Shown piece after piece: positions 3,270-41,396 of a stretch of DNA of 43,704 nucleotides; within the stretch, counting starts at the first letter, position 1, and every line of letters begins with the position of its first letter. The position numbers and the translations under genes were made by a program. The notes under the pieces are model-generated. The model saw only the letters and a list, made by a program, of their open reading frames with translations, did not search any database and was not told where the DNA came from. Source of the DNA: Acetobacteraceae bacterium (lineage in GTDB: Bacteria; Pseudomonadota; Alphaproteobacteria; Acetobacterales; Acetobacteraceae); NCBI GenBank assembly GCA_003137135.1, contig PLFB01000129.1, positions 1-43,704 of the forward strand, written 5' to 3'.

Positions 3270-4004
3270 ATGGCCAGTTTCCTGTTGATCCATGGCGCGA
3301 TGCATGGTGGTTGGTGTTGGGAGCGTGTTGTGCCGCTGCTGGTGAGCCAAGGCCACCACGTGGCTGCGCCGGACCTGCCGGGCATGGGCGCGGACTCTAT
3401 GGGCGCTCCTGGCATCACCCTGGAATCCTGGGGCCGATTTGCTGCCGATTTACTCGGACGGCAGCCGACAAAATCCATCCTGGTTGGCCATAGCCTCGGC
3501 GGCATGGTCATCAGCCAGGCCGCGGAATATGCACCGGCACAGATCACCGCGCTGGTCTATCTCACGGCGCTCCTGCCGCGGAACGGTTTGTCGGCACTTG
3601 AGATTACGCGCGGCGAGGACGTTCCAGACATGGGTGCCAGGATGGCGCTTCGGCCGACGGCGGATGGCGAAAGCATTATCGCCGCGCCGGAAGACGCGCG
3701 CGCCTATCTCTACGGCGAAACACCCGCCGAATGGGCCGAACGCGCCGTATCCCGCTTGGTGCCGCAGCCTCTGGCGCCGCTGCAAAATACCGCCGCCCTC
3801 ACGGAAACGAATTTCGGCTCGGTTCCACGCGTGTATATCGAATGTCTGCGCGACCGCATTCTGCCTGTGCTCCTGCAACGGACCATGCACGCCGCATCGC
3901 CTTGCGCGGCGGTGCTTTCCATCGATACCGATCACTCGCCGTTTTACGCGGCACCGGAAGCGCTAGCGGCGCACCTGCTTCAAATCGCGGCGCGGTTCGA
4001 TTAG
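3270..4004 (+). CDS. Alpha/beta hydrolase, EstC/hydroxynitrile-lyase-like esterase
   Basis: The 244-residue soluble protein has the alpha/beta-hydrolase fold signature. HGAMHGGWCW near the N-terminus supplies the oxyanion region, Ser75 sits in the nucleophile elbow GHSLGG (73-78), Asp195 lies in ECLRDRILP, and His222 lies in DTDHSPFYAAPE. The DHSPF ending and short length place it with the plant hydroxynitrile lyase/methylesterase and bacterial EstC (pyrethroid esterase) group. All triad residues are present, so it is probably an active esterase. It follows the MFS gene by 9 bp. Its stop codon (4002-4004) overlaps the stop of the convergent LysR gene (4001-4003), leaving no room for a separate terminator. 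Esterase substrate unknown. Confidence 0.85.
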   Translation: MASFLLIHGAMHGGWCWERVVPLLVSQGHHVAAPDLPGMGADSMGAPGITLESWGRFAADLLGRQPTKSILVGHSLGGMVISQAAEYAPAQITALVYLTALLPRNGLSALEITRGEDVPDMGARMALRPTADGESIIAAPEDARAYLYGETPAEWAERAVSRLVPQPLAPLQNTAALTETNFGSVPRVYIECLRDRILPVLLQRTMHAASPCAAVLSIDTDHSPFYAAPEALAAHLLQIAARFD

Positions 4005-4915
4005 GATTCCTGATTGGCAAGGCCGCGGCGCCGCCGATTGGCGTCTTCTCGTACCATGGCTGCATAGTGTTGCAGCGCCAGGGAGGGGTCGGCCTGGCGC
4101 CAGGCAATGTGAAAGTTGAATTTTGGGAGGGCTGGGCGGATCGGGCGAAATGCCACGGCCGATGCGGGCGGGTCGTGCAGGGCGGGCAGCACGGCGATTC
4201 CGAAACCGGCCGCCACCAGGCCGAATATGGTGGAACTGGTATCGGCTTCGTGGATGATTTTTGGCCGGAAGCCGGCGCCGGCGCAAAGTTTCTCCAGCCA
4301 GGCCTGGTAGTCGTAGAAAACCCCACCCAGCGAGACGAAGGGCTGGTCAGCGAGGTCCGCAAGGGCGAGGTGCCGGCGGGCGAGGAGGATATGGCCGGCG
4401 GGCAGGGCGGCGTGAATGGCCGCCTGCTGGATGCATTCGAAATGGATCTGCTCCTGCACGGCGGCAAGGCGCAGGCCTGCATAGGCGAGGTCGATTGTCT
4501 TGCGCTGCAGGGCTTCGATCTGCTGGCGCGGGTCGAGTTGCTGGATTTCAATTTTGACTTTCGGGAATTTTTCGCGGAACAGCTTCATCACCCGTCCCAG
4601 GGAGGGCTCGAAATACCCGAAGGAATACGCGATCCGTAGCCGGCCGGCGGCGCCACGCTGGACTTCCCTGACATCCTCGAGGGCCTGCGTGGCGCGGGCA
4701 AGGATTTGCCTGGCTTCGTTGAGGAAGATGTCTCCAGCCTCCGTCAGGGCAATGCCCCGCTTGCCGCGGGTTATGAGCGGGACGCCGGCTTCGCGCTCGA
4801 GGTCCTGTATCTGCCGGCTGAGGGGCGGATGGGAAATGTTCAGCCGCGCCGCGGCGCGCCGCAAATTCAACTCCTCGGCCACCGCGATGAAGTAGCGCAA
4901 ATGCCGTAATTCCAT
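4001..4915 (-). CDS. LysR-family transcriptional regulator
   Basis: The 304-residue protein begins at MELRHLRYFIAVAEELN (start codon 4913-4915). An upstream in-frame extension to 5311 overlaps the divergent thiolase and is rejected. Residues ~1-60 form the winged helix-turn-helix (AAARLNISHPPLSRQIQDLE, then ITRGKRGIALTEAG). Residues ~90-295 are the two-lobed inducer-binding domain. The N-terminal sequence is closest in style to the CatR/BenM subgroup, which binds small carboxylates or CoA esters. It is divergent from the thiolase operon across an 80-120 bp region with an inverted repeat, the classic arrangement for a LysR activator of the neighbouring operon. It is the only regulator gene in the window. 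Confidence 0.93.
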   Translation of the reverse strand: MELRHLRYFIAVAEELNLRRAAARLNISHPPLSRQIQDLEREAGVPLITRGKRGIALTEAGDIFLNEARQILARATQALEDVREVQRGAAGRLRIAYSFGYFEPSLGRVMKLFREKFPKVKIEIQQLDPRQQIEALQRKTIDLAYAGLRLAAVQEQIHFECIQQAAIHAALPAGHILLARRHLALADLADQPFVSLGGVFYDYQAWLEKLCAGAGFRPKIIHEADTSSTIFGLVAAGFGIAVLPALHDPPASAVAFRPIRPALPKFNFHIAWRQADPSLALQHYAAMVREDANRRRRGLANQES

Positions 4916-5032: not shown

Positions 5033-6199
5033 ATGCGGGCAGACCGTATGCCGGTGATCGTGGGGGTGGCCCTGAGCGATTATCCGAAGGCGCCGAACCT
5101 GACGAGCCACGGTCACCACGCCCAGGCGCTGCAGCGTGTGCTTGAGGAGTCTGGTGTGCGGTTGGAGGATGTTGATGGCTATATGTCGGTGGGAACCGGC
5201 GGCATGAATGTCGACGATGTCGCCACGATGGCGGAATATTTTCGTATCAAGCATCGATGGGCCGAGGGATCGCAGATCGGCGGCGCCGCATATCAGGGGT
5301 TTGTCGACCACGCGAAGACAGTTATTGAATCTGGTATTTGCGACACGGTGCTGATGACCTATGGGTCGGATCTGCGTTCGAATAAGCGCCGCTCGCTAGC
5401 ACCGCGGCTGGCTGATCAGTTCGTTGAATCGCCGCGCTGTTACGAGAATCCGTATGGGCCGACGATTCTGGGCAATTACGCGCTGGCGGCGCAGCGGCAC
5501 ATGCACGAATTTGGCACCACGCTTGAGCAACTGGCGGAAATTGCGGTTTCCACGCGGCTGCACGCGGCAAACAATCCGTTTGCGCTGAATCGCGAGCCGA
5601 TCACCATTGCGGATGTGGTGAACGCGCCACGCGTCGCCGACCCGCTGGGGAAACTCGATGCCTGCGTGGTGACGGATGGCGGCGCCGCGGTGATCATGAC
5701 GACGCTGGAGCGGGCACGCGACTTGCGGCAGAAGCCGATCTACCTGCTCGGCTCCGCGACGGCGCAGACCCATTGGAGCATCAACCAGATGCCCGATTAT
5801 ACGACGACGGCGGCGGCGGTGAGCGGCCCGGCGGCGTTTGCGCAGGCCGGGGTGACCCCGGCTGATATCGATACCGCGCAGCTCTATGACAGTTTCACCA
5901 TTACCGTGATGCTGCTGCTGGAGGGGCTGGGTTTTTGCAGGCGGGGTGAGGGCGGCGCGTTTGTGCGGGATGGCAAGCTGCGACCCGGCGGGCGGCTGCC
6001 GACGAATACGGATGGCGGCGGGTTGTCGGCCTGCCATCCGGGCATGCGCGGCGTTTTCACGTTGATCGAAGCGGTGCTGCAGCTGCGCGGGCAGGCCGGC
6101 GCGCGGCAGGTTCCGGATGCGAAGCTGGCAGTGGCGTGCGGGAGCGGCGGGATTCTGTCCTGCATCAGCACGCTGATTTTGGGAAAGGAGCAGCCGTGA
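5033..6199 (+). CDS. Ltp2/SCP-x-like thiolase-fold protein (probable retro-aldolase subunit)
   Basis: About 388 residues with the thiolase fold. The end has HPGMRG and ACGSGG, and there is an LYDSFT segment in the C-terminal half, as in the lipid-transfer-protein (Ltp2/SCP-x) group. Where degradative thiolases carry the nucleophilic cysteine, this protein has IGGAAYQGFVDHA with no Cys, as in the steroid retro-aldolase Ltp2, which cleaves beta-hydroxy acyl-CoAs. I chose ATG 5033 because AAGGA (5021-5025) lies 7 bp upstream; ATG 4997 and 5027 are in-frame alternatives. The next gene encodes DUF35 and overlaps the stop (GTGA), exactly the pairing seen for Ltp2 and its DUF35 partner. Retro-aldol function is inferred from fold, missing Cys and partner. 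Confidence 0.85.
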   Translation: MRADRMPVIVGVALSDYPKAPNLTSHGHHAQALQRVLEESGVRLEDVDGYMSVGTGGMNVDDVATMAEYFRIKHRWAEGSQIGGAAYQGFVDHAKTVIESGICDTVLMTYGSDLRSNKRRSLAPRLADQFVESPRCYENPYGPTILGNYALAAQRHMHEFGTTLEQLAEIAVSTRLHAANNPFALNREPITIADVVNAPRVADPLGKLDACVVTDGGAAVIMTTLERARDLRQKPIYLLGSATAQTHWSINQMPDYTTTAAAVSGPAAFAQAGVTPADIDTAQLYDSFTITVMLLLEGLGFCRRGEGGAFVRDGKLRPGGRLPTNTDGGGLSACHPGMRGVFTLIEAVLQLRGQAGARQVPDAKLAVACGSGGILSCISTLILGKEQP

Positions 6200-6639
6200 C
6201 GCTGCTTTCCGATGCGATCGCAGGCGAGCTGCCGGGGCGGCCGGTGCCGTTCGTGGATGCCGATAACAGGCCATTCTATGACGGCTGCGCGCGAGGCGAG
6301 TTGTGGATGCAGCGCTGCGTGGAGACCGGGAGATATCAGTTTTATCCCCGTCCATGCTCGGTTTATACCGGCGGGCGGGTTGAATGGGTGAAGTGCGTCG
6401 GCAAGGGCACGGTGCATACGTTCAGCGTGATCCGGCGCAATTATCCGGAGCCTTATTTCGAGGCGTTAACGCCTTACGTCGTTGCGATTATCGACCTTGG
6501 GGAGGGGGTGCGCATGATGTCGAATGTGACCGGATGCACGCCGGAAGAGGTGAAGATCGGGATGAAGGTGGAAGTTTATTTCAGTTGCGTCAGTGAGGCG
6601 CAGCGCGTTTTTCTGCCTTTCTGGCGGCCGGTGGGCTGA
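6196..6639 (+). CDS. DUF35 (OB-fold, Zn-ribbon-type) partner of the thiolase-like protein
   Basis: The 147-residue protein starts at GTG 6196, inside the thiolase stop codon (GTGA), with AAAGGAG at 6184-6190. It has the DUF35 layout: an N-terminal helix (FYDGCARGELWMQRC), a rubredoxin-like ribbon, then an OB fold (GKGTVHTFSVIRRNY, GVRMMSNVTG, GMKVEVYF). In the ribbon only Cys41 and Cys54 of the usual four cysteines remain: the second partner of each CxxC pair is Thr44 and Tyr57, so zinc binding looks lost. DUF35 proteins bind CoA substrates and form the obligate partner of Ltp2-type aldolases and some thiolases. The gene order strongly suggests a stable complex with the preceding product. Confidence 0.88.
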   Translation: MTLLSDAIAGELPGRPVPFVDADNRPFYDGCARGELWMQRCVETGRYQFYPRPCSVYTGGRVEWVKCVGKGTVHTFSVIRRNYPEPYFEALTPYVVAIIDLGEGVRMMSNVTGCTPEEVKIGMKVEVYFSCVSEAQRVFLPFWRPVG

Positions 6640-6652
6640 GGGGATTTTCGGT

Positions 6653-7846
6653 ATGGAACTGGCGCTGACCGCAGAAGAACTGTTATTTCAACGGGAAGTT
6701 CGGGAATTCCTCGACTCCGGGCTCAAGCCGGAATGGCGTGGCGTGTCGGACAGTGATAATCGCTCACAGCCGGAGGTGACCGCGCAATGGCAGGCGGTGC
6801 TGGCGACAAAGGGCTGGCTGACACCGGCCTGGCCTGCGGTGCATGGCGGGCTGGGCTGGAGCCCGATGCAGCACCATATTTTCAAGGAGGAATGCAGCAA
6901 AAGGCGCGCGCCGAAGCTATCGAGCATGTCGATTGGCATGATCGGGCCGCTGATCTGCCTGTATGGCACAACTGCGCAGCAGGCATATTATTTGCCGCGC
7001 ATCATCAGCGGCAATGATGTCTGGTGCCAGGGGTTTTCCGAGCCTGGCTCGGGATCGGATCTCGCCTCGCTGAAAACCGCGGCGCGGCGTGACGGGGATG
7101 AGTATGTTGTCGCGGGGCAGAAAATCTGGACGACCTATGCGCATTACGCAACGCACATGTTTTGCCTGGTACGGACCAACCCGCTCGCCGCGCGACCTCA
7201 GGCCGGGATCAGCATGCTGCTGATCGACATGAAATTGCCTGGCATTACCGTGCGTCCGATCAGGACGATTGATGGCGAGCACCATTTCAACGAAGTGTTT
7301 TTCGATGACGTCCGCGTGCCGGAGAGTTGCCTGCTGGGCGCTGAGAATCAAGGCTGGGATGTGGCGCGTTCGTTGCTCGCTTTCGAGCGTTCCGGCATTG
7401 CCGATGTGGTCGCCACCCGGCAGGCGCTGCATGATGTTTTGGCGATCGCGGCGGGAGAGGCGCGTGGCAATGGCAGCCTGCTGCAAGATGATGACTTTGG
7501 CGATCGTTTGGCACGGTTGGAAATCGCCTTGGATGCGCTTGAGACCTTTGAGTTGCGGGTAATGGATGCCGGGCCGCGCTGCGCGGGGCGAGCGCATGAT
7601 GCATCGATTCTGAAAATTCTTGGCTCAGAGGTCAGGCAGAAGATACATATGCTTGGCGTTGAGGCGCTGGGGCAGGTTGGCGCGGTTTGGCCGGATGATG
7701 CGGCGCCGGCGCATCCGTCGGGGGCCGGCCGGCATCTTGTGCAGGATGCACTATTTTTTCGGGCGGCATCCATTTATGGCGGCGCCAACGAAATCCAGCG
7801 CAATATTATTGCGAAATCGTTGTTAAAGTCACCTGTGGAGATTTAG
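6653..7846 (+). CDS. Acyl-CoA dehydrogenase, catalytic-type subunit of a probable heteromeric pair
   Basis: The 397-residue protein starts at ATG 6653 (MELALTAEEL). It has the acyl-CoA dehydrogenase signature SEPGSGSDLASLKT (129-142) and, near the C-terminus, YGGANEIQRNII. At the MCAD catalytic position (YEGT) it has Gly, but Glu245 in LAFERSG matches the catalytic Glu of isovaleryl-CoA dehydrogenase, so the active site is probably of the helix-G type. It oxidises an acyl-CoA to the 2-enoyl-CoA with FAD. The next gene, 9 bp downstream, is a diverged paralogue lacking these residues, as in the ChsE-type alpha2beta2 dehydrogenases of steroid side-chain degradation. It is in the same operon as the Ltp2-like/DUF35 pair. 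Confidence 0.92.
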   Translation: MELALTAEELLFQREVREFLDSGLKPEWRGVSDSDNRSQPEVTAQWQAVLATKGWLTPAWPAVHGGLGWSPMQHHIFKEECSKRRAPKLSSMSIGMIGPLICLYGTTAQQAYYLPRIISGNDVWCQGFSEPGSGSDLASLKTAARRDGDEYVVAGQKIWTTYAHYATHMFCLVRTNPLAARPQAGISMLLIDMKLPGITVRPIRTIDGEHHFNEVFFDDVRVPESCLLGAENQGWDVARSLLAFERSGIADVVATRQALHDVLAIAAGEARGNGSLLQDDDFGDRLARLEIALDALETFELRVMDAGPRCAGRAHDASILKILGSEVRQKIHMLGVEALGQVGAVWPDDAAPAHPSGAGRHLVQDALFFRAASIYGGANEIQRNIIAKSLLKSPVEI

Positions 7847-7855
7847 GCGTTAGCC

Positions 7856-8989
7856 ATGGAATTCAGTTTCACCGGCATTCAATCCGAATTTCGCGCGACG
7901 CTGCGGCGGTTTTTGAATGAGCGTGGCGCGCCAGCGGCGCAGGCAGGCGAACGCGAGATGGCGCGGCGGTGGCGGGCGGAACATTGGGCGGAGCTCGCGG
8001 AACTTGGCGCGTTGGCAGCGCTTCTGCCGGAAGATTGTGATGGACTGGGTGGCGACAGCGTCGATGCAATTGCAATGCTTGATGAGATCGGCCGTGCGCA
8101 GGCCGGGGCGCCGTTGATTGAGACCGCCATCGTCGCCGCGGGGTTGATCGGCAGGTTGGGCTCACCGGCGCAGAAGCGGGAATTTTTGCCCGCGATTGCG
8201 GCGGGGCGGCTAAAATGCGCGATCGCGGATGGCGGGATTCTGGCGCCGGGCGCATCGGGGTCATCGTTCGAGTTGCGTGCGCTGGATAATGGGGCGTACC
8301 GCGCCCAGGGTCGGCAGGCTTTGGTAACCGAAGCGCCGGACTGCGATTGGCTGCTGGTCGTGTGCGGAGGATCGCTGTCTGCGTTGAGCGTGTTTTTCGT
8401 CAAGCCAGGTCAGGCTGGAGCGCGGTTGCAGCCGTTCTGGACAATCGATGACCGGCCGGCGGCCAGTCTCAGCCTGGAGGCGGTGGCGCTTGAGGCGGCT
8501 TTGCGTTTGGGCGGCGTTGGTGAGGCAGGTGCAGCGCTTGCGGACGTTTTCGATTGTGCGGCTGTCGCGCAGTGCGCCGAAGCGGTGGGGCTGATGGCAA
8601 GTCTGTTGAACCAGACGATCGCGCATTTGAAGACGCGCACGCAGTTCAGCCAGCCCCTGGCGGAATTTCAGGCATTGCAGCATCGGCTTGTGGATATGTA
8701 TGCGGCTTATGAACTGAGCCTGTCACTGACGTACAAGGCGGCAATTCTGAGCAAGCAGGCCGCGACGGATGATCAGCGCGCCGCCGTTTCCGGCGCGAAA
8801 GTACAGACAGCTGAGGCCGCGCGCCTGATTGGGCACGAGGCGATTCAGATGCATGGGGCGATGGGCATGAGCTCGGAACTGCCAGTGGGAAGGGCGGTCA
8901 AGCGGCTGAAGGCGATGGAGCCGCAATACGGATTGCCCTCGTATCATCTGCGCCGCTACCGGGCGCTCCGCAGGAGCCACGCGGTGTGA
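7856..8989 (+). CDS. Acyl-CoA dehydrogenase-like, non-catalytic-type partner subunit
   Basis: The 377-residue protein keeps the overall dehydrogenase fold: an N-terminal helical domain (EFSFTGIQSEFRATLRRFL), FSQPLAEFQALQHRLVDMY, and HEAIQMHGAMGMSSE near the C-terminus for the FAD-binding helical part. The flavin/substrate signature of the middle domain is degenerate (AIADGGILAPGASGS) and neither catalytic Glu position is filled. This pattern fits the partner chain of an alpha2beta2 enzyme in which one active site is made per heterodimer. It starts 9 bp after the catalytic-type gene. Its stop overlaps the GTG start of the synthetase (8986-8989). Pairing is inferred from order and residue pattern. 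Confidence 0.9.
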   Translation: MEFSFTGIQSEFRATLRRFLNERGAPAAQAGEREMARRWRAEHWAELAELGALAALLPEDCDGLGGDSVDAIAMLDEIGRAQAGAPLIETAIVAAGLIGRLGSPAQKREFLPAIAAGRLKCAIADGGILAPGASGSSFELRALDNGAYRAQGRQALVTEAPDCDWLLVVCGGSLSALSVFFVKPGQAGARLQPFWTIDDRPAASLSLEAVALEAALRLGGVGEAGAALADVFDCAAVAQCAEAVGLMASLLNQTIAHLKTRTQFSQPLAEFQALQHRLVDMYAAYELSLSLTYKAAILSKQAATDDQRAAVSGAKVQTAEAARLIGHEAIQMHGAMGMSSELPVGRAVKRLKAMEPQYGLPSYHLRRYRALRRSHAV

Positions 8990-10560
8990 TCCAGGGCCGG
9001 CCCTCTGCGCGCTACAAAACCGCCGGGCAGATGCTTCAAGCCGCGGCCGCCACGTCGCCGGGGAAGACGGCGCTGGTGTTCGGAGATCGCAGGCGCAGTT
9101 ACCGGGAATTGGACGAGGCCAGTAACCGGATTGCCAGCGCGCTCCTCGCAAAACACCATGCGTGTGGCAGGACGATCGGAATTATCGGCAAAAACTCAGA
9201 TTATTTCGTGGAAATTCTGTTTGGCGCCGTCAAGTCGGGTGGCACGGCGGTGGTGCTGAACTGGCGCCTGGCGCCGCCGGAATTACTTGGAATCGTCGAG
9301 GATGCCGGCCTGGCCGTACTGTTTTATGACATCGCGTTTGCTTCAGCCGTTGAATTTTTGCGATCGGTCTTGCCGTCGATTGTGTATATTCCGTTCGACG
9401 TGGCGGGTGATGCGAACCCGGATTTTGGGATGCTGGTTGCAGGGCAACGCGCCGGGGCGCCGGAGGTTATGATCAGCCCGGATGATCCTGCTATCATGAT
9501 GTATACCAGCGGCACCACGGGACAACCCAAGGGGGTGCCGGCCAGCCATTATGCGATCTGTTTTGCACCGCAGAACATGCTGGCCACCGGCGAGCGCTGC
9601 GTGAGCCTTGAGCCGGATATCAATCTGCTCACCACGCCGTTGTTTCATCTGGCGGGGATCGGCTGGCTGTTTGGTTCGATTTTTGCGCGCGCGACTCTGA
9701 TTATTTTGCCTGCCGCCGATGTGCCGGCGATCGTTGCGACGATCGCCGCGCATCGGGTGACGCGCGCGACGGTGCTGCCGGCGTTGATGCCGGCGCTGCT
9801 GGATGCGGTGGCGCAGGGGGTCGATCTGTCAAGCCTGCGGCTGATCGTTTATGGCGCATCGCCGATTCCGGAAAGCCTGCTGGCGCGGATGCTGGAAAAC
9901 TTCTGCTGCGGCTTTCTGCAGAATTATGGAATGACCGAGAACAGTACGGCGGCGACCTATCTGGGACCGGAGGACCATTATCCCGGCAGCCCGTTTCTGC
10001 TGTCCTGCGGCCGGCCTTATCCGTATGTGAAGCTGCGCACGGTGAGAGCGGACGGGACGATCTGCGGCGCCGGTGAGATCGGTGAGATTGAGTTGCAATC
10101 CGCGACGTTATTTGCGGGCTATTGGCGGCGGCCGGGGGTGAGCGCGGAAGTGTTGCGGGATGGCTGGTACGCCACCGGCGATCTCGGGTATCTTGATACG
10201 AAGGGCTTTATTTTTCTTGTCGACCGCAAGAAGGACATGATTATTTCGGGCGCGGAGAACATCTACCCGGCGGAGGTGGAATCGGCGATCAGCGCGCATC
10301 CGGATGTCGTGCGCGCCGCCGTGATCGGCGTGCCGAGCGATAAATGGGGCGAAGAGGTCAAGGCGATCGTGATTCTGCGCGACGGCTCGGTGCTCGATGG
10401 CGCTGGGCTAATTACGTTTCTCCGCCCGATGATCGCCGGCTATAAATTGCCGAAATCGGTTGATTTCGTGTCCGAATTGCCGCTGACCGCGGTCGGTAAA
10501 ATCGCCAAGCCGGTACTGCGTGAACGTTATTGGCCGGCGCCGGGCCGGAGGATCAATTGA
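8986..10560 (+). CDS. AMP-forming acyl-CoA synthetase
   Basis: The 524-residue protein is an ANL-superfamily adenylating enzyme that converts a carboxylate, ATP and CoA to the acyl-CoA via an acyl-AMP. Visible motifs in order are YTSGTTGQPKG (173-183, phosphate loop), TPLFHLAGIGW, NYGMTEN (A5), YATGDLGYLD (395-404, A7), DRKKDMIISGAENIYPAEVE (A8 hinge) and the catalytic Lys505 in LTAVGKIAK. Length and motifs fit medium/long-chain or steroid/cyclic acid CoA ligases (FadD17/FadD3-like). It starts at GTG 8986 with CAGGAG upstream and overlaps the preceding stop by 4 bp, so it is translationally coupled. It is probably the entry enzyme for this operon's substrate. Confidence 0.93.
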   Translation: MIQGRPSARYKTAGQMLQAAAATSPGKTALVFGDRRRSYRELDEASNRIASALLAKHHACGRTIGIIGKNSDYFVEILFGAVKSGGTAVVLNWRLAPPELLGIVEDAGLAVLFYDIAFASAVEFLRSVLPSIVYIPFDVAGDANPDFGMLVAGQRAGAPEVMISPDDPAIMMYTSGTTGQPKGVPASHYAICFAPQNMLATGERCVSLEPDINLLTTPLFHLAGIGWLFGSIFARATLIILPAADVPAIVATIAAHRVTRATVLPALMPALLDAVAQGVDLSSLRLIVYGASPIPESLLARMLENFCCGFLQNYGMTENSTAATYLGPEDHYPGSPFLLSCGRPYPYVKLRTVRADGTICGAGEIGEIELQSATLFAGYWRRPGVSAEVLRDGWYATGDLGYLDTKGFIFLVDRKKDMIISGAENIYPAEVESAISAHPDVVRAAVIGVPSDKWGEEVKAIVILRDGSVLDGAGLITFLRPMIAGYKLPKSVDFVSELPLTAVGKIAKPVLRERYWPAPGRRIN

Positions 10561-10571
10561 GGGAGGTTGAA

Positions 10572-11351
10572 TTGGCTGACGAAAGGCGAATGGTGCGTTT
10601 TGAGCGGGATGGGCATATCGGCATCATCACCATCGACCGGCCCGAAGTCCGAAATGCGATTAACGGCGCGGTTTCGCGTGGGATCGAGGCGGCGATTGAC
10701 GAGATTGAAACCGATCCCTCGCTCTGGGTCGGCATTCTGGCCGGTAACGGACCGGTATTTTCCGCCGGTGCGGACTTGAAGGCGGCGGTGGAAGGGCGCG
10801 GTGAGCAAATTAGCACGGCGCGCGGCGGCTTCGGCGGGATCACGGCGCGGCAGCATGAGAAGCCGATCATCGCCGCGGTGGACGGCGCGGCACTTGCGGG
10901 CGGCTTTGAGATCGTGCTGGCCTGCGACATGGTGGTCGCCTCAAAGTCGGCACGGTTCGGGATTCCGGAGGTCAAGCGCGGGCTGATTGCTGGCGCCGGC
11001 GGTTTGTTCCGGCTGGCGCGGCATTTGCCGCCGAATATCGCGATGGAACTGGCGCTCACTGGCGATCCGATCGACGCTGCCAGCGCCGCGCAATGGGGCA
11101 TCGTGAATATTTTGACGGAACCTGGCGGAGCGCTGGCCGGCGCGCGGGATCTCGCGAACCGGATTATCGCCAATGCGCCGATGAGCGTGCGCTTAAGCCG
11201 CCGGACCATTCTGGAAACCAGGTTGCTGGACGACGCCGCGGCGTTCCGGAATTCAGCCGCGCGCCTGGCGGAGAATTGCGCGACTGCCGATTATGCCGAA
11301 GGCCCGAGGGCTTTTCTGGAAAAACGTGCGCCAGTGTGGCAGGGGCGCTGA
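10572..11351 (+). CDS. Enoyl-CoA hydratase
   Basis: The 259-residue crotonase-family protein has oxyanion-hole segments PVFSAGADLKA and ALAGGFEIVLACD. Both catalytic glutamates of true hydratases are in place: the Glu in GGFEIV and, 20 residues on, the Glu in FGIPE. It should hydrate 2-enoyl-CoA to 3-hydroxyacyl-CoA, the step between the dehydrogenase pair and the retro-aldolase encoded upstream. I chose TTG 10572 because GGGAGG (10561-10566) lies 5 bp before it; ATG 10590 is an in-frame alternative, and a start at 10530 would overlap the synthetase without a binding site. It is the last gene of the operon that begins at 5033. Confidence 0.9.
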   Translation: MADERRMVRFERDGHIGIITIDRPEVRNAINGAVSRGIEAAIDEIETDPSLWVGILAGNGPVFSAGADLKAAVEGRGEQISTARGGFGGITARQHEKPIIAAVDGAALAGGFEIVLACDMVVASKSARFGIPEVKRGLIAGAGGLFRLARHLPPNIAMELALTGDPIDAASAAQWGIVNILTEPGGALAGARDLANRIIANAPMSVRLSRRTILETRLLDDAAAFRNSAARLAENCATADYAEGPRAFLEKRAPVWQGR

Positions 11352-25558: not shown

Positions 25559-26392
25559 ATGCCGGATCAAACCCTGTTGCCACCCCCGCCATTCGCGGCT
25601 GCCGTCAGCGCCCCGGTGGAACTTGTCGTCACCGTGTTGTTCGCGGCGTTCGCGTTGGCGGCGCTGGTTTACGCGCTCATCGATTGGCGGCGCTCAGGCA
25701 AGCCATCCTTTTTGCTGATGTTTATCAGCGGCGGGGCGATGTTCATCGTCGAGCCGATGATCGATACGGTCGGCGGTTGCTGGTTCCCGGCAAATTCATT
25801 TGTTGCCTTCACAGCCTATGGACGGCCGATGCCGGTCTGGCTGTGCCTGACCTATTTCTGCTATTTCGGCATCGGCGTGGGTGTAGTCTGGCGCATGATG
25901 AATCGCGGCCTCAGCCGGGCGCGGCTCTGGTCATTTTATCTTGGCGCGATCGCGGCGGATGTGGCGGAGGAAATTCTGCTCCTGCATTTCAAGGTCTATA
26001 TGTATTATGGTCCGCAGCCGCTGGAGGTGTTGAACTTTCCCTTGTGGTGGTGCGCCGTTAACGGGTTGACGACGATGGCGGCGGCGGCTGTGGTTTACCG
26101 CTATCAAGCGTATTTGATGACGGGTTGGCGGCAGTTGCAGATTATTCCGGTTGTGCTGACTGTTAGCACCGCCGTTAATTGCATGGTGGGCTGGCCGTCC
26201 TGGATGGCGATCAACACGCCGGTCAGCCCGGTGGTCACACAGTTTGCGGGGATTGGCAGTTTTTGCCTTTCCTTGTGGTTCATGTCGCTGGTGGTGAAAG
26301 CGGTAGCGGCGGATGCAGTGCCGGGCAGCGCGCGCCTGGCCGGGCAGGCGGGCAGCGCGCGCCTGGCCGGGCAGGCCGTGCGGGCGACGTAA
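25559..26392 (+). CDS. Seven-helix membrane protein of uncertain family
   Basis: The 277-residue protein starts at ATG 25559 (TTTAGGAG 5 bp upstream). Hydrophobic segments lie at about 19-41, 51-66, 92-111, 123-142, 160-180, 194-212 and 224-246, so it is an inner-membrane protein with seven helices. Conserved-looking polar positions in or near helices are EPMIDTVGGCWFP (65-77), DVAEE (134-138), YMYYGPQP and WWCAVNG. The layout faintly resembles AveC/spirocyclase-like membrane proteins, but I would not assign it. The C-terminus contains a tandem duplication (GSARLAGQA twice). It is divergent from P450 D. Function unknown; a lipid- or terpenoid-modifying role is speculation. Confidence 0.75.
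   Translation: MPDQTLLPPPPFAAAVSAPVELVVTVLFAAFALAALVYALIDWRRSGKPSFLLMFISGGAMFIVEPMIDTVGGCWFPANSFVAFTAYGRPMPVWLCLTYFCYFGIGVGVVWRMMNRGLSRARLWSFYLGAIAADVAEEILLLHFKVYMYYGPQPLEVLNFPLWWCAVNGLTTMAAAAVVYRYQAYLMTGWRQLQIIPVVLTVSTAVNCMVGWPSWMAINTPVSPVVTQFAGIGSFCLSLWFMSLVVKAVAADAVPGSARLAGQAGSARLAGQAVRAT
26323..26376. repeat. Two identical 27-bp direct repeats
   Basis: Copies 26323-26349 and 26350-26376 are identical and adjacent. They add nine codons (GSARLAGQA) to the C-terminus of the membrane protein. Probably a recent slippage or unequal recombination event. Confidence 0.9.
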
Positions 26393-26413: not shown

Positions 26414-27184
26414 TTATTTGATGAAGTCGGGCGGCCGTTTTTCCTTGAAGGCAGCGTAGCCTTCGACGAATTCCGGGCCGGTGAGGCAGGCGACCTGAGC
26501 CTCGGCTTCCAGCGCCAGATTTAACGGATCCGTTCCGGAACTTTGCCGAAGCAAATGTTTCAGCCGCGCGAAAGCCTGTTGCGGCAGTGCTGCCAGGCGC
26601 TCGGCGTCCTCGATGGCGCGCGTCATCACTGTGCCATCTTCAACATCCAAATCCGCCAGGCCGGCGGCGACGGCGGCCTCGGCCGAAACGGGCTTCCCAT
26701 CAAGAAATATCTGTGTGGCGCGCGCTTGGCCGGCACGGAGACAAACTGACCGCACCAGACCCCAGTCGGGCACCAGGCCCAGACGCAGAAACGGAAACAG
26801 CAGCGTCGCGCCGCTTCCCATGACGACCCGGTCGGCGAGCAGCGCGATTCCGGCGCCGGCGCCGGCCGCCGCGCGCTCCACCGCCGCGATGACGGGCTTT
26901 GGAAACATCCATAGCAAGTCAACGATTCTATGGCCGTCCGCCATGCGCGCCTGGGCCGCTGCCGGCGCGATTCCAACCATGCTCGGCAAATCGCCGCCGG
27001 CCGAAAAAAAACCGCCCGCGCCGCCAATGATGACAGCGCGAACCGAATGATCGTCGGACGCCGCGATCAGCGCCGTACACAGCGCATCACGCACCGCGGC
27101 GTTGATGGCGTTTCTGGCTTCCGGCCGGTTGATGAGCAAACGGCGAACATGCGGTGCCGGATGGTCCATCAGAAGCTCGCTCAT
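26414..27184 (-). CDS. Enoyl-CoA hydratase/isomerase-family protein lacking both hydratase glutamates
   Basis: The 256-residue crotonase-fold protein keeps the oxyanion-hole elements GGFFSAGGDLP and AAGAGAGIALLADR. At the two positions where hydratases have catalytic Glu, it has Gly (AGIALL) and Phe (FPFLRLG). It is therefore unlikely to be a simple 2-enoyl-CoA hydratase; isomerase, thioesterase-like or retro-Claisen activity of the crotonase family are the alternatives. ATG 27184 overlaps the stop of the preceding dehydrogenase gene by 4 bp, so it is the last, coupled gene of the minus-strand beta-oxidation operon. Confidence 0.87.
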   Translation of the reverse strand: MSELLMDHPAPHVRRLLINRPEARNAINAAVRDALCTALIAASDDHSVRAVIIGGAGGFFSAGGDLPSMVGIAPAAAQARMADGHRIVDLLWMFPKPVIAAVERAAAGAGAGIALLADRVVMGSGATLLFPFLRLGLVPDWGLVRSVCLRAGQARATQIFLDGKPVSAEAAVAAGLADLDVEDGTVMTRAIEDAERLAALPQQAFARLKHLLRQSSGTDPLNLALEAEAQVACLTGPEFVEGYAAFKEKRPPDFIK

Positions 27185-28677
27185 GCCCGTGGCGCCTCAT
27201 GCAGCAGCGACAGGCCGAGCATCGCGCGGCGGCGCAGCCAAAGGCTGGGACGGTAGCGCAAATCGCCGGTGATCTTTTGGATCGTCTCCAGAATCTCAAG
27301 AATTTTCTTGGGGCCGATTTGATCACCCAGTTCCAGGGGCCCAGCCGGATAGCCGAGGCCCAGGCGGATCGCGGGGTCGATCTCGGCGGCGCGCGCGATG
27401 CCGCGCTGGGCGATTTCGCAGCCGATATTGACGATCATCGCGATGACGCGCTGGCTGACGAAGCCGGGGCTATCCGCAAGTACGGTAACCTTGGCGCCAT
27501 TCGCCGCCAGCAAGGCATGCGCCGCCTCGGCCACGCGTGGCGCGGTGGCCGGGGAAAGCATCAGCGCAAGGCGGCGAGTCCATTGCATAAGCGGATCGAC
27601 GCCGAGGCTTCGCAACGGATCAAGCCCAAGCCGAAGGCAGGCCGTGGTGATGTCCTCGCCCCAGGGCAGCAGAAAGTTAATCTCGGCGGCTTGAGAGTCG
27701 TCGATGATGTTCGCACCGGAGCGGGCTAGAAGATCAGCCAGCTCGTCACGTCGTTCGCCGGCCTGCACGAAGACGGAGATGCCAGACCGCCGCTCTGGTG
27801 GATGCGGTTCTTCCGGTTCCAGCTTGCGTGCGCCATCATAATTGTAAAACCCGGTGCCGGTTTTGCGGCCGAACAGGCCTGCCGCCAGGCGCGGCGGCAC
27901 GAGCGAGGAGGGGCGGTAGCGCGGCTCATGCTGGAACTGATCGAATATGGACTGCATCACCTTGCCCGAAACGTCGAGCCCGGTCAGGTCCATCAGCTCG
28001 AACGGTCCCATGCGGAAGCCGCTGCCATCGCGCATGATGCGGTCGACGCCGGCAAAATCCGTCACGTTTTCTTCCACCACGCGAAAGCCTTCGCCGTACA
28101 GGCCGCGCCCGGAATGGTTGATCAAAAAACCCGGCTGGTCCGCCGCAATGACCGGGCGGTGGCCGGTTGCCTCGATCAGTCTGCGAAGCTCTTCCACGAC
28201 CTCTGGCGTGGTCTGGATGCCGGGGATGATTTCCGCGATTTTCATCAATGGCACCGGGTTGAAAAAATGCAGCCCGGCGACGCGGGACGGGGTTGCGCAT
28301 AACGCCGCGATGGCGCTGACGGTAAGCGAGGACGTATTGCTGGCCAGGATCGTTTCCGGTCCGGTGATCGTTTCAAGCTCTTGAAACAGTGCCTGCTTCG
28401 CCGCCAGGTCTTCGATGATAGCCTCGACGATGACGGCGCAAACGGACAGGTCCTCTATGGACACGCAAACCAGCAGATTTTCCAGGCAGGACGCCAAAGC
28501 CGCTTGGGAAAGACTGCCCTTCGCGGCCAACCGTTCCAGCACGGCGGCGACGGACGTTTTGGCTTCCGCCGCGGCGCCGGGGCGGGCGTCGAAAAGGCGG
28601 ACGATGTGGCCGCCCTGCACGAAAAGCTGGGCAATCCCGCGTCCCATCACGCCGGCGCCGACAACACCGATCAGCAT
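27181..28677 (-). CDS. 3-hydroxyacyl-CoA dehydrogenase (two-C-domain, PaaH-like)
   Basis: The 498-residue soluble enzyme oxidises 3-hydroxyacyl-CoA to 3-ketoacyl-CoA with NAD. The N-terminal Rossmann domain has GAGVMGRGIA (7-16), followed by ASNTSSLTVS and the active-site HFFNPVPLMK. Two C-terminal 3HCDH domains follow (about 185-280 with FGRKTGTGFYNYD, and about 395-490 with DSPGFVSQRV and GLGYPAGPLELGD), as in PaaH/PaaC-type enzymes rather than the 280-residue FadB2 form. The segment where most members have FIVNR reads FLINH. It starts 1 bp after the acyl-CoA dehydrogenase stop and overlaps the next gene by 4 bp. Confidence 0.93.
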   Translation of the reverse strand: MLIGVVGAGVMGRGIAQLFVQGGHIVRLFDARPGAAAEAKTSVAAVLERLAAKGSLSQAALASCLENLLVCVSIEDLSVCAVIVEAIIEDLAAKQALFQELETITGPETILASNTSSLTVSAIAALCATPSRVAGLHFFNPVPLMKIAEIIPGIQTTPEVVEELRRLIEATGHRPVIAADQPGFLINHSGRGLYGEGFRVVEENVTDFAGVDRIMRDGSGFRMGPFELMDLTGLDVSGKVMQSIFDQFQHEPRYRPSSLVPPRLAAGLFGRKTGTGFYNYDGARKLEPEEPHPPERRSGISVFVQAGERRDELADLLARSGANIIDDSQAAEINFLLPWGEDITTACLRLGLDPLRSLGVDPLMQWTRRLALMLSPATAPRVAEAAHALLAANGAKVTVLADSPGFVSQRVIAMIVNIGCEIAQRGIARAAEIDPAIRLGLGYPAGPLELGDQIGPKKILEILETIQKITGDLRYRPSLWLRRRAMLGLSLLHEAPRA

Positions 28678-28678
28678 G

Positions 28679-30376
28679 TCAGTTCTTGCCGGTCAGCAGG
28701 CCGCGGGCGATGACCTGCGCCTGTATTTCGCCGGCGCCTTCGAAGATGTTCAAAATCCTGGCATCGCACAGCACGCGGCTGATCGGGTATTCCAGGGCGA
28801 AGCCATTGCCGCCATGAATTTGCAGCGCATTATCGGCATTGGACCAGGCCGTGCGCGCCGCCAGCAATTTCGCCATGCCCGCCTCGATATCGCAACGTTT
28901 ATCCAAATCCTTTTCACGCGCCGCGAAATAGGTGAGCTGCCGCGCCACCATCGTCTCAACGGCCATCCAGGCCAGCTTGCCGGCAACGCGGGGGAATTCG
29001 TAAATCGGCTGGCCGAATTGCGCGCGGTCAAGCGCATAGCCCAGGCCCAGCTCCATCGCGTTCTGCGCCACGCCAACCGCGCGGGCGGCGGTCTGAATTC
29101 GGGCACTTTCGAAAGTTTCCATCAGCTGCTTGAAACCCTGGCCGCCCACGCCCCCCAGAAGCGCGTCTTCGGGCACTTCAAAACCCTCGAACCGGATTTC
29201 ATATTCCTTCATGCCGCGATAGCCCAGCACCTCGATCTCGCCGCCGCTCATGCCAGGTGCCGGGAATGGGTCGGCGTCGTCGCCGCGCGGCTTCTCCGCC
29301 AGCAGCATGGACAGGCCTTTATAGCCGGCGGCCGGCTCAGTGCGGACCAGCAGCGTCATCACATCCGCGCGCGCGGCATGGGTGATCCAGGTTTTGTTGC
29401 CGGTGACGCGGAAGATCACGGCGCCATCCGGCCCGGTCACGCGCTCGGCCCGGGTTGCCAGGCTGGCAAGGTCGGAGCCGGTATTCGGCTCGGTGAACAC
29501 CGCGGTCGGCAAAATTTCACCGGCGGCGATTGCCGGCAGGTATTTTGCCTTCTGCGCCGCCGTGCCGCCAAGCCGGATAAGTTCCGCTGCGATCTCCGCC
29601 CGCGTGCCGAGAGAGCCGATGCCGATATAGCCGCGTGAGAGTTCTTCGGAGGCGATGCACATGGCAAGCTTGCCGAGGCCGGAACCGCCCCATTGCTCGG
29701 GCACGGTCAGGCCAAAGATTCCAAGCGCCGACATCTCCTCAATGATCGGCATCGGGATGTATTCATTGCGGCAATGCCAGCCATGGGCGTCGGGCGCGAT
29801 TCGGTCCTCGACGAAGCTGCGCAGCTCGCCGGCGATCTGATCGAGTGCGGCGTCACCCCGGCAAATCGCGCCGAAACTCCCATGCCTGACCAGATCGGCG
29901 ATCCGCGACCGCGTGGCCGTGTTAAAACCCTCGCGCCGCAGCAGGTTGCAGGCTTTGGTATCGAATATGCGCGCGGACTCATCCTGCAGGCCGAAATCGG
30001 CGGGCCGCACGGTTTCAACCTGTGACATCGGCAGGCCGCCGGCGATCTGGTTCAGATATTCGCCGAATGCCGCGCCAAGAATAAGTTTTTCCAGCGCGCC
30101 GAGTTCATTTGTTTCATGCAGGCAAGCGGCCCAGCCCAGAAGCGCGCGCAGGCCGGCTGCGTAGGTCGCCAGCCATGCCACGCCATGCAAAGCATGCTGA
30201 TGCTGCGTGGCTTTGGCGTTGTCCCAACGGCCTTCCGGCGAGACAAGATCCGCGATTGCCCCGCGGGCCAGCGCCACGAAGGAGTCGACAGCGCCGAGAC
30301 CGGCTTCACACACCGCCAGAATTCTGTCTCCGCTTTGCTCATGCAGAGGACTGGCGGGAACGGGCCGGTCCAACAC
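28679..30376 (-). CDS. Acyl-CoA dehydrogenase with ~150-residue N-terminal extension
   Basis: The 565-residue flavoenzyme has an extra N-terminal helical region (about 1-165, including TQHQHALHGVAWLATYAAGL) before the usual dehydrogenase core. The core shows TEPNTGSDLASLATRAE, NKTWITHAARAD, FGQPIYEFPRVAGKLAWM and the C-terminal IFEGAGEIQAQVIARGLL, where Glu546 occupies the MCAD-type catalytic position. The length matches the ~560-residue AcdA-like alphaproteobacterial group whose extension resembles a degenerate second dehydrogenase helical domain. It starts at GTG 30376, directly abutting the stop of the preceding hydratase, and is followed after 1 bp by the hydroxyacyl dehydrogenase. Confidence 0.92.
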   Translation of the reverse strand: MLDRPVPASPLHEQSGDRILAVCEAGLGAVDSFVALARGAIADLVSPEGRWDNAKATQHQHALHGVAWLATYAAGLRALLGWAACLHETNELGALEKLILGAAFGEYLNQIAGGLPMSQVETVRPADFGLQDESARIFDTKACNLLRREGFNTATRSRIADLVRHGSFGAICRGDAALDQIAGELRSFVEDRIAPDAHGWHCRNEYIPMPIIEEMSALGIFGLTVPEQWGGSGLGKLAMCIASEELSRGYIGIGSLGTRAEIAAELIRLGGTAAQKAKYLPAIAAGEILPTAVFTEPNTGSDLASLATRAERVTGPDGAVIFRVTGNKTWITHAARADVMTLLVRTEPAAGYKGLSMLLAEKPRGDDADPFPAPGMSGGEIEVLGYRGMKEYEIRFEGFEVPEDALLGGVGGQGFKQLMETFESARIQTAARAVGVAQNAMELGLGYALDRAQFGQPIYEFPRVAGKLAWMAVETMVARQLTYFAAREKDLDKRCDIEAGMAKLLAARTAWSNADNALQIHGGNGFALEYPISRVLCDARILNIFEGAGEIQAQVIARGLLTGKN

Positions 30377-33523: not shown

Positions 33524-34732
33524 ATGCGTGATGCCGTTATATGTGAGCCTTTGCGCACCGCTGTTGGGCGGTTTGGCGGGCAGTTTCGCGGGCTTTCGGC
33601 GCAGCATCTGGGCATGGCGGTGGTCAAGGCGCTGCTGGCGCGCACCGGGTTTCCGGCGGCGCTGATCGAGGACGTGCTGTTCGCGCAATGCTACCCGACG
33701 ATGGACGCGCCGGCGCTTGGCCGCGTGGTGGCGCTGGATGCAGGGCTGCCGGTGGCAACCGGGGGGCTGCAGATTGACCGGCGCTGCGGCTCCGGCCTGC
33801 AGGCGATCATCTACGCCTCCATGCAGGTCGCGACCGGTGCTTCGGATGCGGTGATTGCGGGTGGTGCGGAATCCATGAGCAACGCACCGTTTTATTCGAC
33901 CTCCGCGCGCTGGGGCATCACCGGCAACGCGCTGACCCTGCATGACGCGCTGGCGCGCGGGCGGGTGACGGCGGGCGGGGCGCATTACCCCGTGCCCGGC
34001 GGCATGCTGGAGACCGCGGAAAACCTGCGCCGCGATTTTTCAATCCCGCGGGAGGAGCAGGATGAATTCGCCTGCGAATCCCATCGCCGCGCCGTCGCCG
34101 CCCAAAACGATGGTATTTTCGCGCAGGAGATCGTGCCCGTCGCCGTGCCGGGCAAGAAGGGCGAGGTTGTTATCGACCGCGATGAGCATCCGCGCCCGGA
34201 AACCACGCTGGCGAGCCTCGCCGCGCTGCAGCCGATCATGCTGCGGGAAGATCCGCAGGCCACGGTCACCGCCGGTAATGCCAGCGGCCAGAACGATGGC
34301 GGCTCGGCCTGCCTGGTGACCACGGCCGATCTTGCGGCCGAATACGGGTTGAAGCCCCTGGCGCGGCTGAAGGCGTGGGCGGTGGCCGGCGTGCCGCCGA
34401 AGACGATGGGGTTTGGGCCGGTGCCGGCGACCGCGAAAGCCCTGGCGCGCGCTGGGCTGCGGCTGGCGGAGCTGGACCTGCTGGAAGTCAACGAGGCGTT
34501 TGCCGCGCAGGTTCTGGCCTGCACCCGCGCCTGGGAATTGGCGCCGGCTGATTTCGCGCGGCTGAATGTGCATGGTTCCGGCATTTCGCTCGGACACCCG
34601 GTGGGCGCGACGGGGGGGCGGATTCTGGCGACGCTGCTGCGGGAGATGGACCGCCGCGCTGTCCGCTACGGGTTGGAGACGATGTGCATCGGCGGCGGCC
34701 AGGGGCTGGCGGCGATTTTCGAAAGGGCATGA
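33524..34732 (+). CDS. Thiolase (acetyl-CoA acyltransferase)
   Basis: The 402-residue enzyme is a complete degradative thiolase: nucleophile Cys88 in DRRCGSGLQAI, NEAFAAQ, NVHGSGISLGHPVGATGG and the second cysteine in TMCIGGGQG. It cleaves 3-ketoacyl-CoA with CoA to acetyl-CoA (or propionyl-CoA) and a shortened acyl-CoA. In contrast to the thiolase-fold protein at 5033, all catalytic residues are present. ATG 33524 is chosen over upstream in-frame starts because GGGAG (33510-33514) precedes it and the family N-terminus (MRDAVICEPLRTAVG) begins there. It probably completes the beta-oxidation cycle encoded at 26414-31213. It converges with the CoA-transferase gene. Confidence 0.94.
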   Translation: MRDAVICEPLRTAVGRFGGQFRGLSAQHLGMAVVKALLARTGFPAALIEDVLFAQCYPTMDAPALGRVVALDAGLPVATGGLQIDRRCGSGLQAIIYASMQVATGASDAVIAGGAESMSNAPFYSTSARWGITGNALTLHDALARGRVTAGGAHYPVPGGMLETAENLRRDFSIPREEQDEFACESHRRAVAAQNDGIFAQEIVPVAVPGKKGEVVIDRDEHPRPETTLASLAALQPIMLREDPQATVTAGNASGQNDGGSACLVTTADLAAEYGLKPLARLKAWAVAGVPPKTMGFGPVPATAKALARAGLRLAELDLLEVNEAFAAQVLACTRAWELAPADFARLNVHGSGISLGHPVGATGGRILATLLREMDRRAVRYGLETMCIGGGQGLAAIFERA

Positions 34733-40159: not shown

Positions 40160-41392
40160 CTAACGCGGGCCGGCCGGAATTTTGTTGAACGGCATGTCCT
40201 TATCCACCCGCATATCGGCCGGCATTTTCAGCACGCGTTCGGCGATGATGTTGCGCAGAATTTCATCCGTGCCGCCGGCGATGCGTTTTCCTGGGGCGTA
40301 GAGCAGGGCGTTCTGGAACCAGGCGTCGAAGGGCGCGGTTTCGCTGTCCATCACGGCGCCGGCCTGGCCGAGCAGGTCGACGCCGAACGCGGCGATTTCC
40401 TGCAACTTGGTCGCGCTGACCAGCTTGGCGATGGAAGCTTCCGGCCCCGGCGTTTTGCCGCGCGACAAGGCGGTCTGCATGCGAAGCCGCGTGTATTTCA
40501 GCCCTTGCGCCTGACAGAACCAGTTGACGAGTTTTTCGCGCACCGCGGCATCGTTCACCGCGGGCGCGTCATCCAGCATGACCAGCTTCGCCAGCCGGAA
40601 AATATCGTCGAAATCCGGCCCTTCCGCTTGGCCGACGGTAAAGCGTTCATTGGCCAGCATCGTCATCGCCACTTTCCACCCATCGCCCACCGCGCCAAGG
40701 CGCTGCGAATCAGGAATGCGCACATCTGTCAGAAACACCTCGCAGAAATTCGAGGTGCCGGAAATTTGCTTGATCCGCCGCACGTCCACGCCCGGTGTCG
40801 CCATGTCGAGAATGAAAAATGTCAGCCCCTGGTGCTTCGGCACATCCGGGTTGCTGCGCGCGACCAGCATCGCGAATTGCGAAAAATGCGCGTTGGAGGT
40901 CCAGACTTTCTGGCCATTCACCACCCAGTCATCGCCATCCCGCGCACCCCGCGTCCGCAGGCCGGCGAGGTCCGATCCCGCCGCCGGTTCGGAGAAAAGC
41001 TGGCACCAGACCTCCTCGCCAAACAGCGCCGGGCGCGCATAGCGGTCAATCTGCGCCTGGGTGCCGCAGCTCATGATCGTGGGCAGCGCCATGCCGACGC
41101 CCTGGTTGAAAATGCCGGGCGGCACGAGGTATTTTTCTTCTTCCTGGGCGAAGATGATCGCCTGCATCTGCGTGCCTTCACGGCCGCCATATTTTTTCGG
41201 CCAGTGGAATCCGGCGAAGCCGGCTTCGGCCTTTTTGCCCTGCCAGGCTTTTGAAAGCGCGACATCTTCAGCATTGAAGGCGCGGCTCCCGCTGGTCCGG
41301 CTATGTTCGGATTTCAGGACGGCATTGGCATTGAGAAACGCGCGGGCCTCGGCGCGGAAAGCGGCTTCTTCGGGCGTGTCGTTGAAATCCAT
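40160..41392 (-). CDS. Acyl-CoA dehydrogenase, catalytic-type subunit of second heteromeric pair
   Basis: The 410-residue flavoenzyme has SEPAAGSDLAGLRT (134-147), NGQKVWTSNAHFSQFAMLVA and GGTDEILRNIIAERVL near the C-terminus. The MCAD catalytic position is Gly, but Glu249 in MLANERFTVG matches the helix-G catalytic Glu of isovaleryl-CoA dehydrogenase, as in the subunit at 6653. The overall layout (FHWPKKYGGREGTQMQAIIF) is typical of FadE26/FadE17-like dehydrogenases of steroid and cyclic-substrate degradation. The partner-type gene ends 4 bp upstream. It is followed by the NDP-forming synthetase in the same operon. Confidence 0.92.
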   Translation of the reverse strand: MDFNDTPEEAAFRAEARAFLNANAVLKSEHSRTSGSRAFNAEDVALSKAWQGKKAEAGFAGFHWPKKYGGREGTQMQAIIFAQEEEKYLVPPGIFNQGVGMALPTIMSCGTQAQIDRYARPALFGEEVWCQLFSEPAAGSDLAGLRTRGARDGDDWVVNGQKVWTSNAHFSQFAMLVARSNPDVPKHQGLTFFILDMATPGVDVRRIKQISGTSNFCEVFLTDVRIPDSQRLGAVGDGWKVAMTMLANERFTVGQAEGPDFDDIFRLAKLVMLDDAPAVNDAAVREKLVNWFCQAQGLKYTRLRMQTALSRGKTPGPEASIAKLVSATKLQEIAAFGVDLLGQAGAVMDSETAPFDAWFQNALLYAPGKRIAGGTDEILRNIIAERVLKMPADMRVDKDMPFNKIPAGPR

Positions 41393-41396
41393 ATTG

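Follow-up and report, generated by a model that had tools for sequence, protein, structure and literature searches.

Does a short run of genes on a contig of an Acetobacteraceae bacterium shorten an acyl side chain by retro-aldol cleavage or by thiolysis? The run lies in a stretch of 43,704 nucleotides, hereafter the window, with which contig C247 (PLFB01000129.1; 109,765 bases) begins, in a genome of 285 contigs that is 83.8% complete (assembly GCA_003137135.1). Six genes, all on the + strand, occupy window positions 5033-11351 with junctions of -4, +13, +9, -4 and +29 bases. They encode a thiolase-fold protein of the aldolase type (named here, like the other products, by the first position of its gene), a stand-alone DUF35 protein, two acyl-coenzyme A (CoA) dehydrogenase subunits, an adenosine monophosphate (AMP)-forming acyl-CoA synthetase and a crotonase-type enoyl-CoA hydratase. 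A preliminary description of this DNA had reported the first four as coupled genes, and they were indeed found at 5033-6199, 6196-6639, 6653-7846 and 7856-8989. We consider it probable that this operon acts on a CoA-activated acid and makes its acyl side chain shorter through retro-aldol cleavage and not through thiolysis.

The assignment of the 5033 protein draws on family models, structural matches, alignment and a tree. It scored 450 bits against the subfamily model NF004811 (PRK06158), above the cut-off of 421, and 210 bits against PF22691. Its best-matching solved relatives are 4u4e (E-value 5e-99), CtSal (9myr_A, 5e-53) and TcLtp2 (6ok1_A, 8e-47); the values for 4u4e and 6ok1 mean that the match is not due to chance. 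The predicted structure, with a mean predicted local distance difference test score (pLDDT) of 82.7 and values below 50 at residues 119-141 and 333-338, best matched the same three entries. Where Cys-dependent thiolases have their nucleophilic Cys, the protein has SQIGGAAYQGF, and YDSF (Tyr285, Ser287) takes the place of NEAF/HDxF, so that neither hallmark of a Cys-dependent thiolase was found; the thiolase His-Pro (HP) motif is retained as CHPG (His335-Pro336). The earlier label "Cys-less" holds for these catalytic positions but not for the whole protein, which contains seven cysteines, none of them in the nucleophile segment. Cys334 and Cys369 were rejected as candidates for a catalytic thiol, Cys being present at these positions in 50/120 and 6/120 proteins, respectively.

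Tyr285, Ser287 and His335 stand at the places of the catalytic residues Tyr294/Tyr344 of TcLtp2 and Tyr302/Cys304 of CtSal, as these are given in the accessible text of PMC12329534. Tyr285 and His335 were invariant in two alignments (21/21 rows of alignment A4 and 14/14 of alignment A1). Across 156 compared proteins, HP is kept in 120 of the 125 that carry YD[A/S]F, the remaining five having His without Pro (three) or Tyr (two). We would like to note that the corresponding count of 120/120 for Tyr285 and His335 comes from proteins picked by that very motif, and that 120/125 is the fair count. As judged from the aligned residues, the Tyr/Tyr pair of Ltp2 and the Tyr/Cys pair of Sal are both absent from the 5033 protein.

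A tree was built from 80 of the 157 collected sequences and drawn with a midpoint root. On one side of a branch with support 100/99 it places 63 Tyr-type rows, which include TcLtp2, CtSal and IpfD of ibuprofen degradation; the NEAF rows (100/100) and the HDCF/HDAF rows fall outside this clade. Twelve rows within it (98/94) comprise TcLtp2, IpfD (weakly placed), YENF rows and others. CtSal joins the HP side (50 rows, 96/84), which without CtSal holds 49 rows (98/86); HP is complete in 47 of these, and the other two, L033 and L140, have the His and lack the Pro. The 5033 protein clusters with sequences from the collected loci L034-L038 (7 rows, 100/97). The phylogenetic check proposed with the preliminary description thus puts it in the Tyr-type clade and not among the Cys-dependent thiolases. 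Long end branches lead to CtSal, IpfD, L118, L068 and L120, and how Ltp2, Sal and the HP branch are ordered is less sure than the Tyr-type clade itself. Further active-site variants in this clade carry the motifs YDGF and YENF (L112:6759, L099:5942; L137-L139).

The protein had also been described as Ltp2-like. It does share with Ltp2 a DUF35 partner gene, here the overlapping 6196-6639, but membership of the Ltp2 family did not hold up: the score against NF005892 (PRK07855) was 230.7 bits with a cut-off of 469, and the protein lies outside the Ltp2 branch of the tree. We take this model to stand for Ltp2, given that L135 and L136, which exceed its cut-off, have YDHF and that L135 is sister to TcLtp2. 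Instead of the YDHF and second Tyr (Tyr344) of Ltp2, or the YDCY with Cys304 and Gln352 of Sal, the window protein has YDSF and His335. By the features compared it is neither Ltp2 nor Sal, although the operon probably functions in the manner of the steroid aldolase modules.

The 6196 protein (147 residues), the expected partner of the 5033 protein, is a DUF35 protein with a degenerate zinc ribbon and an OB fold. It matched PF01796 (79 bits) and PF12172 (29 bits), both over cut-off, and its closest counterparts by sequence and by fold (model pLDDT 87.9) are the DUF35 domains of ChsH2 in 6ok1 and of Shy in 9myr. In place of a C4 zinc ribbon (CxxC...CxxC) it has CVET...PCSVYT, with the second and fourth Cys lost and the third matched in one alignment and off by one residue in another. 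According to the accessible text of PMC12329534, the homologues compared there have four Cys ligands, except for Shy. The idea that the zinc-poor DUF35 of the window is unique was ruled out: IpfE has no zinc Cys in the alignment either, and the 127 DUF35 open reading frames (ORFs) in the fetched loci divide, by a count that rests on one alignment, into 79 with four ligand Cys and 48 with none or one. A zinc-less DUF35 group seems common from these sequences. Many of the 48, which miss three or four zinc Cys, retain a TGR...YPR-like loop. The DUF35 partners in L034-L038 retain all four Cys, which suggests that the zinc site was lost recently on the line of the window.

Both dehydrogenase subunits exceed the Pfam acyl-CoA dehydrogenase cut-offs, the 6653 protein being PimC-like and the 7856 protein PimD-like. 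The 6653 protein has Glu at the column of Glu254 of isovaleryl-CoA dehydrogenase (IVD); in the 7856 protein that column holds Ala and the 376-type column holds Tyr, where Glu254 and Glu376 are the residue numbers that we take for the two known positions of the base. The IVD stretch in the alignment stops before the 376 column, and another dehydrogenase of the window (28679-30376), which served to verify the columns, has Glu at the 376 one. Among relatives chosen by similarity to the two window proteins, Glu is present at the 254 column in 28/28 relatives of 6653 and absent in 21/22 relatives of 7856, none of which (0/22) has Glu at the 376 column. The claim of a catalytic-type and a non-catalytic-type subunit was thereby borne out, and this arrangement, with Glu on one subunit and the genes adjacent, is as would be expected for an alpha2beta2 enzyme. 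Across 289 genomes of the class, no listed match of the 7856 protein outside its own genome exceeds 39% identity. A second dehydrogenase pair in the window (40160/41397; 40160-42518) shows the same Glu pattern, its small subunit scoring 161 bits against IpdE2 (cut-off 450).

As had been proposed, an acyl-CoA synthetase and a true hydratase continue the run. The synthetase (8986-10560, + strand) matched PF00501 and PF13193, and its gene overlaps the preceding one by 4 bases. The hydratase gene, read from an ATG at 10590 to 11351 on the + strand, follows the synthetase gene after 29 bases; its product, with family scans started at 10596, exceeded the cut-off of NF006100 and in alignments to solved hydratases retains both Glu of the crotonase site, which we take to be the catalytic ones. 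The next + gene downstream encodes an amidohydrolase (at 11729). Within the six-gene run, profile scans found no 3-hydroxyacyl-CoA dehydrogenase and no Cys thiolase.

In the pathway that we propose, the synthetase would form the CoA thioester of an acid, the 6653/7856 alpha2beta2 dehydrogenase would convert it to the alpha,beta-enoyl-CoA, and the crotonase would add water to give the beta-hydroxyacyl-CoA. The complex of the 5033 protein with DUF35 would then cut the C-alpha/C-beta bond and release acetyl- or propionyl-CoA together with a ketone or aldehyde. The beta-hydroxyl would be deprotonated by Tyr285 of the YDSF motif, and His335, which aligns with Tyr344 of Ltp2, is the likely acid for the enolate. 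The role of Tyr as base is backed by mutation in CtSal and, as cited in the accessible text of the same paper, in TcLtp2 (PMC12329534). Such a route would suit a beta-carbon that is branched or attached to a ring, where the hydrated intermediate would be a tertiary alcohol that cannot be oxidised, and from this chemistry we infer a beta-branched or ring-attached acid as the substrate. That the run itself supplies the ligase, the dehydrogenase pair and the hydratase supports the retro-aldol step. What the analysis shows are the fold, the families, the gene order, the pattern of residues and the place in the tree; the reaction and its direction, the roles of the residues, the complexes and the substrate are proposed on that basis.

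A collection scan, whose patterns included YD[A/S]FT and so favoured that motif, returned at least 592 confirmed stretches, of which the best 80 were kept as loci. Among these best 80 of at least 592, the highest identities to the 5033 protein outside the window were 58-61%, in Acidimicrobiia and related metagenome-assembled genomes and in Nonomuraea; all 576 plasmid records with a match fell below 60%. A shared orthologous operon was ruled out, as none of the listed matches in 147 related genomes exceeded 53% identity besides the window itself. A same-strand DUF35 gene stands beside the thiolase-fold gene in 78/80 loci. The two exceptions, L099 and L112, are both from Pseudomonas and have no neighbouring DUF35 ORF; crotonase-type genes adjoin. 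A same-strand pair of catalytic-type and non-catalytic-type dehydrogenases (score thresholds 150 and 40 bits) was found in 13/80 loci, and within 450 bases in 6/80 (L055, L059, L075, L081, L100 and L108), five of which are titled Betaproteobacteria or genera thereof and one, L081, only Pseudomonadota. By distance, 6 pairs lie at 0-3 kb (139 flanks available), 6 at 3-6 kb (127 available) and 1 at 6-9 kb (112 available), a modest excess near the gene. The coupling of aldolase and DUF35 is thus near constant, and the dehydrogenase pair recurs as a partner without being common. The joining of the module to such a pair, as the preliminary description had it, is real in the window but conserved only in part: of the five closest relatives, L036 (Nonomuraea) alone has both types: its homologue is directly preceded, on the same strand, by a Glu-bearing dehydrogenase and, before that, a synthetase, and the Glu-less dehydrogenase is on the opposite strand. 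In L034 a single dehydrogenase, Glu-bearing, is encoded on the other strand, and none was found in the flanking DNA examined of L035 (short downstream), L037 and L038.

Several points weigh against a retro-aldol operon. Ser287 occupies the place of Cys304 in CtSal, and a Cys304Ser exchange is reported to have abolished activity there (PMC12329534, accessible text), so that the window protein must use another proton donor. The His at position 335 is conserved in ordinary thiolases too, so its retention could reflect another Claisen-type activity, and the pLDDT of residues 333-338 gives no support for detail around it. The window also holds a 3-hydroxyacyl-CoA dehydrogenase (27181-28677) and a Cys thiolase (33527-34729), so the means for thiolysis are present as well. 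In four of the five closest relatives the two dehydrogenase types do not both occur nearby, and the branch is one in which we found no assayed member. The 5033 protein could be a Claisen-type or decarboxylating enzyme, catalysing Cys-free acyl transfer or decarboxylation of a malonyl-type CoA, and not an aldolase. The retained His335-Pro336 would fit this, as would the fact that DUF35 proteins also partner Cys thiolases and acyltransferases (benzoylsuccinyl-CoA thiolase, PhlABC) and the report that TbSLP decarboxylates malonyl-CoA, if very slowly (PMC12329534, in its accessible text). We nevertheless regard it as quite unlikely: the nucleophile Cys is absent, Tyr replaces the Asn or His of NEAF/HDxF, the tree groups the protein with proven aldolases, and the accessible text of the same paper reports CtSal to be without malonyl-CoA decarboxylation. 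That the two dehydrogenases form independent homo-oligomers acting on different substrates is very unlikely, even though the PimC and PimD equivalog cut-offs were not reached (355/624 and 160/653 bits) and the two types lie on opposite strands in L036. Both known catalytic positions lack Glu in 7856 and one carries it in 6653, a difference that their relatives repeat at the 254 column (28/28 against 1/22); only 9 bases separate the genes, and the entries 4x28 and 6wy8/6wy9 each have two different chains that match the two subunits.

A degradation of steroid or bile-acid side chains, with the ring-cleaving genes located in the portion that the assembly lacks or overlooked by the markers, would share the enzyme logic of the igr/ORF40-44 clusters (PMC12502768, accessible text). 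The preliminary description had invoked this logic, which holds up for the aldolase-type protein, DUF35, the dehydrogenase pair, the synthetase and the hydration step; the MaoC hydratase of igr/ORF40-44 (ChsH1 or the N-domain of ChsH2) was not found in the module, which has a crotonase instead. An island rich in cytochromes P450, short-chain dehydrogenases/reductases (SDRs) and CoA enzymes, the second pair 40160/41397 with its below-cut-off resemblance to IpdE2, the incompleteness of the genome and the small number of markers tried also leave room for a steroid. The description's claim that steroid-ring genes are absent agrees with our scans, in which the host genome gave no match to KshA_C and none over cut-off to FadD3 or IpdE2, with no control genome over cut-off for any of the three. 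In addition, one Tyr-type protein was found in the genome, whereas in the bile-acid pathway Sal and Ltp2 occur together (PMC12329534, accessible text), and the active site fits neither. The marker scans make a steroid substrate less likely, and we consider this explanation of the module unlikely.

Members with YD[S/A]F and HP were checked in Actinomycetota, Proteobacteria, Bacillota (L044, L053, L056, L061, L065) and Chloroflexota (L049, L102), and a search of mostly open literature, which is not proof of absence, recognised no assayed enzyme with this combination. We tentatively suggest, as a possibility somewhat short of an even one, that YD[S/A]F plus HP marks a third catalytic type of thiolase-fold CoA aldolase, in which Tyr and the old thiolase His serve as the acid/base pair. 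It would occur in four phyla, often with a zinc-less DUF35, and act on non-steroid beta-branched or cyclic acids, the window member being linked to a dehydrogenase pair, a ligase and a hydratase of its own. In the plasmid records, members of the branch are annotated as acetyl-CoA acetyltransferase or thiolase, against which their residues argue. Were they aldolases, the last step of many gene clusters would become readable as the retro-aldol removal of two or three carbons from positions impassable to beta-oxidation. A third acid/base arrangement on one fold would help to explain how thiolases evolved into aldolases, and the branch would offer new catalysts for C-C bond formation.

Upstream, a LysR-type regulator gene (4001-4915, - strand; start codon at 4915) diverges from the operon and is likely to encode its regulator; Pfam HTH_1 and LysR_substrate were matched in a scan made from position 4816 down. 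The remainder of the window also holds SDRs, a luciferase-type monooxygenase, beta-oxidation enzymes, the Cys thiolase, an adenosine diphosphate (ADP)-forming CoA ligase and four P450s, two of which were Pfam-scanned and all four of which fall below the cut-offs of the NCBIfam P450 models. At 25559-26389, within the P450/SDR stretch, lies the gene of an apparent membrane protein that matched neither Pfam nor NCBIfam at the thresholds applied. Elsewhere on C247, genes resembling those of coenzyme F420 biosynthesis (FO synthase, FbiB/CofD/CofC-like) were recognised by eye at about 94.3-100.7 kb (L116, L117), on the same contig as several luciferase-type monooxygenases. At about 63.0-68.7 kb (L115), MMPL/RND transporter-like genes and DUF1302 and DUF1329 proteins, again by eye, point to possible transport of hydrophobic substrates.

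Retro-aldol cleavage outside steroids has a precedent in ibuprofen degradation (PMC9195938, PMC11347016; accessible text). IpfD/IpfE of Rhizorhabdus wittichii MPO218 (plasmid pIBU218) is likewise a thiolase-type/DUF35 retro-aldolase with an adjoining gene for an AMP-binding protein, and IpfE lacks the zinc Cys, akin to the degenerate DUF35 of the window. IpfD differs in having Tyr at the place of His335 and in grouping, weakly, with the Ltp2 side of the tree, and its substrate comes from a ring dioxygenase, whereas that of the window would come from a dehydrogenase and a hydratase. The HBC operon of Mycolicibacterium neoaurum (atf1-chsH4-chsE6) resembles the window in combining an aldolase, a stand-alone DUF35 and an acyl-CoA dehydrogenase-type gene; it is likened here by its described gene content, serves a sterol side chain and has a single dehydrogenase-type gene whose role is unsettled in the accessible text (PMC10398937). 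A ChsH2-like gene adjoins a lipid-transfer protein in the estrogen edc cluster (PMC7793797), and an acetone-related cluster of Desulfotomaculum includes a DUF35 gene (PMC8084838), both per the accessible text. The dehydrogenase pair has its counterparts in PimC/PimD and in the steroid ChsE-type alpha2beta2 dehydrogenases, which likewise have Glu-bearing and Glu-less subunits encoded by adjacent genes.

The closest solved structure, 4u4e, is a putative thiolase of Sphaerobacter thermophilus from the YDSF plus HP branch, for which our literature search found no paper. Of the assayed branches, the tree puts that of CtSal, with its long end branch, nearest to the window protein (96/84), and CtSal-Shy(DUF35) (PDB 9myr) shares the fold, the position of the Tyr base and the DUF35 partner; CtSal has YDCY with the catalytic Cys304 and Gln352 where the window protein has YDSF and His335, and Shy, unlike the window's DUF35, has a MaoC domain and a C3H1 zinc site (PMC12329534, accessible text). 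With TcLtp2-ChsH2(DUF35) (PDB 6ok1) the window has in common the thiolase fold, the absence of a nucleophile Cys, the Tyr of YDxF and the DUF35 partner, and the steroid clusters with Ltp2 likewise have a neighbouring dehydrogenase pair (PMC12502768, accessible text). It differs in having YDSF and not YDHF, His at the place of Tyr344, a separate clade, a stand-alone DUF35 and a crotonase in place of the MaoC hydratase. Set beside these systems, the operon would represent known chemistry in a variant form, of which the unassayed active site and its breadth are the interesting part.

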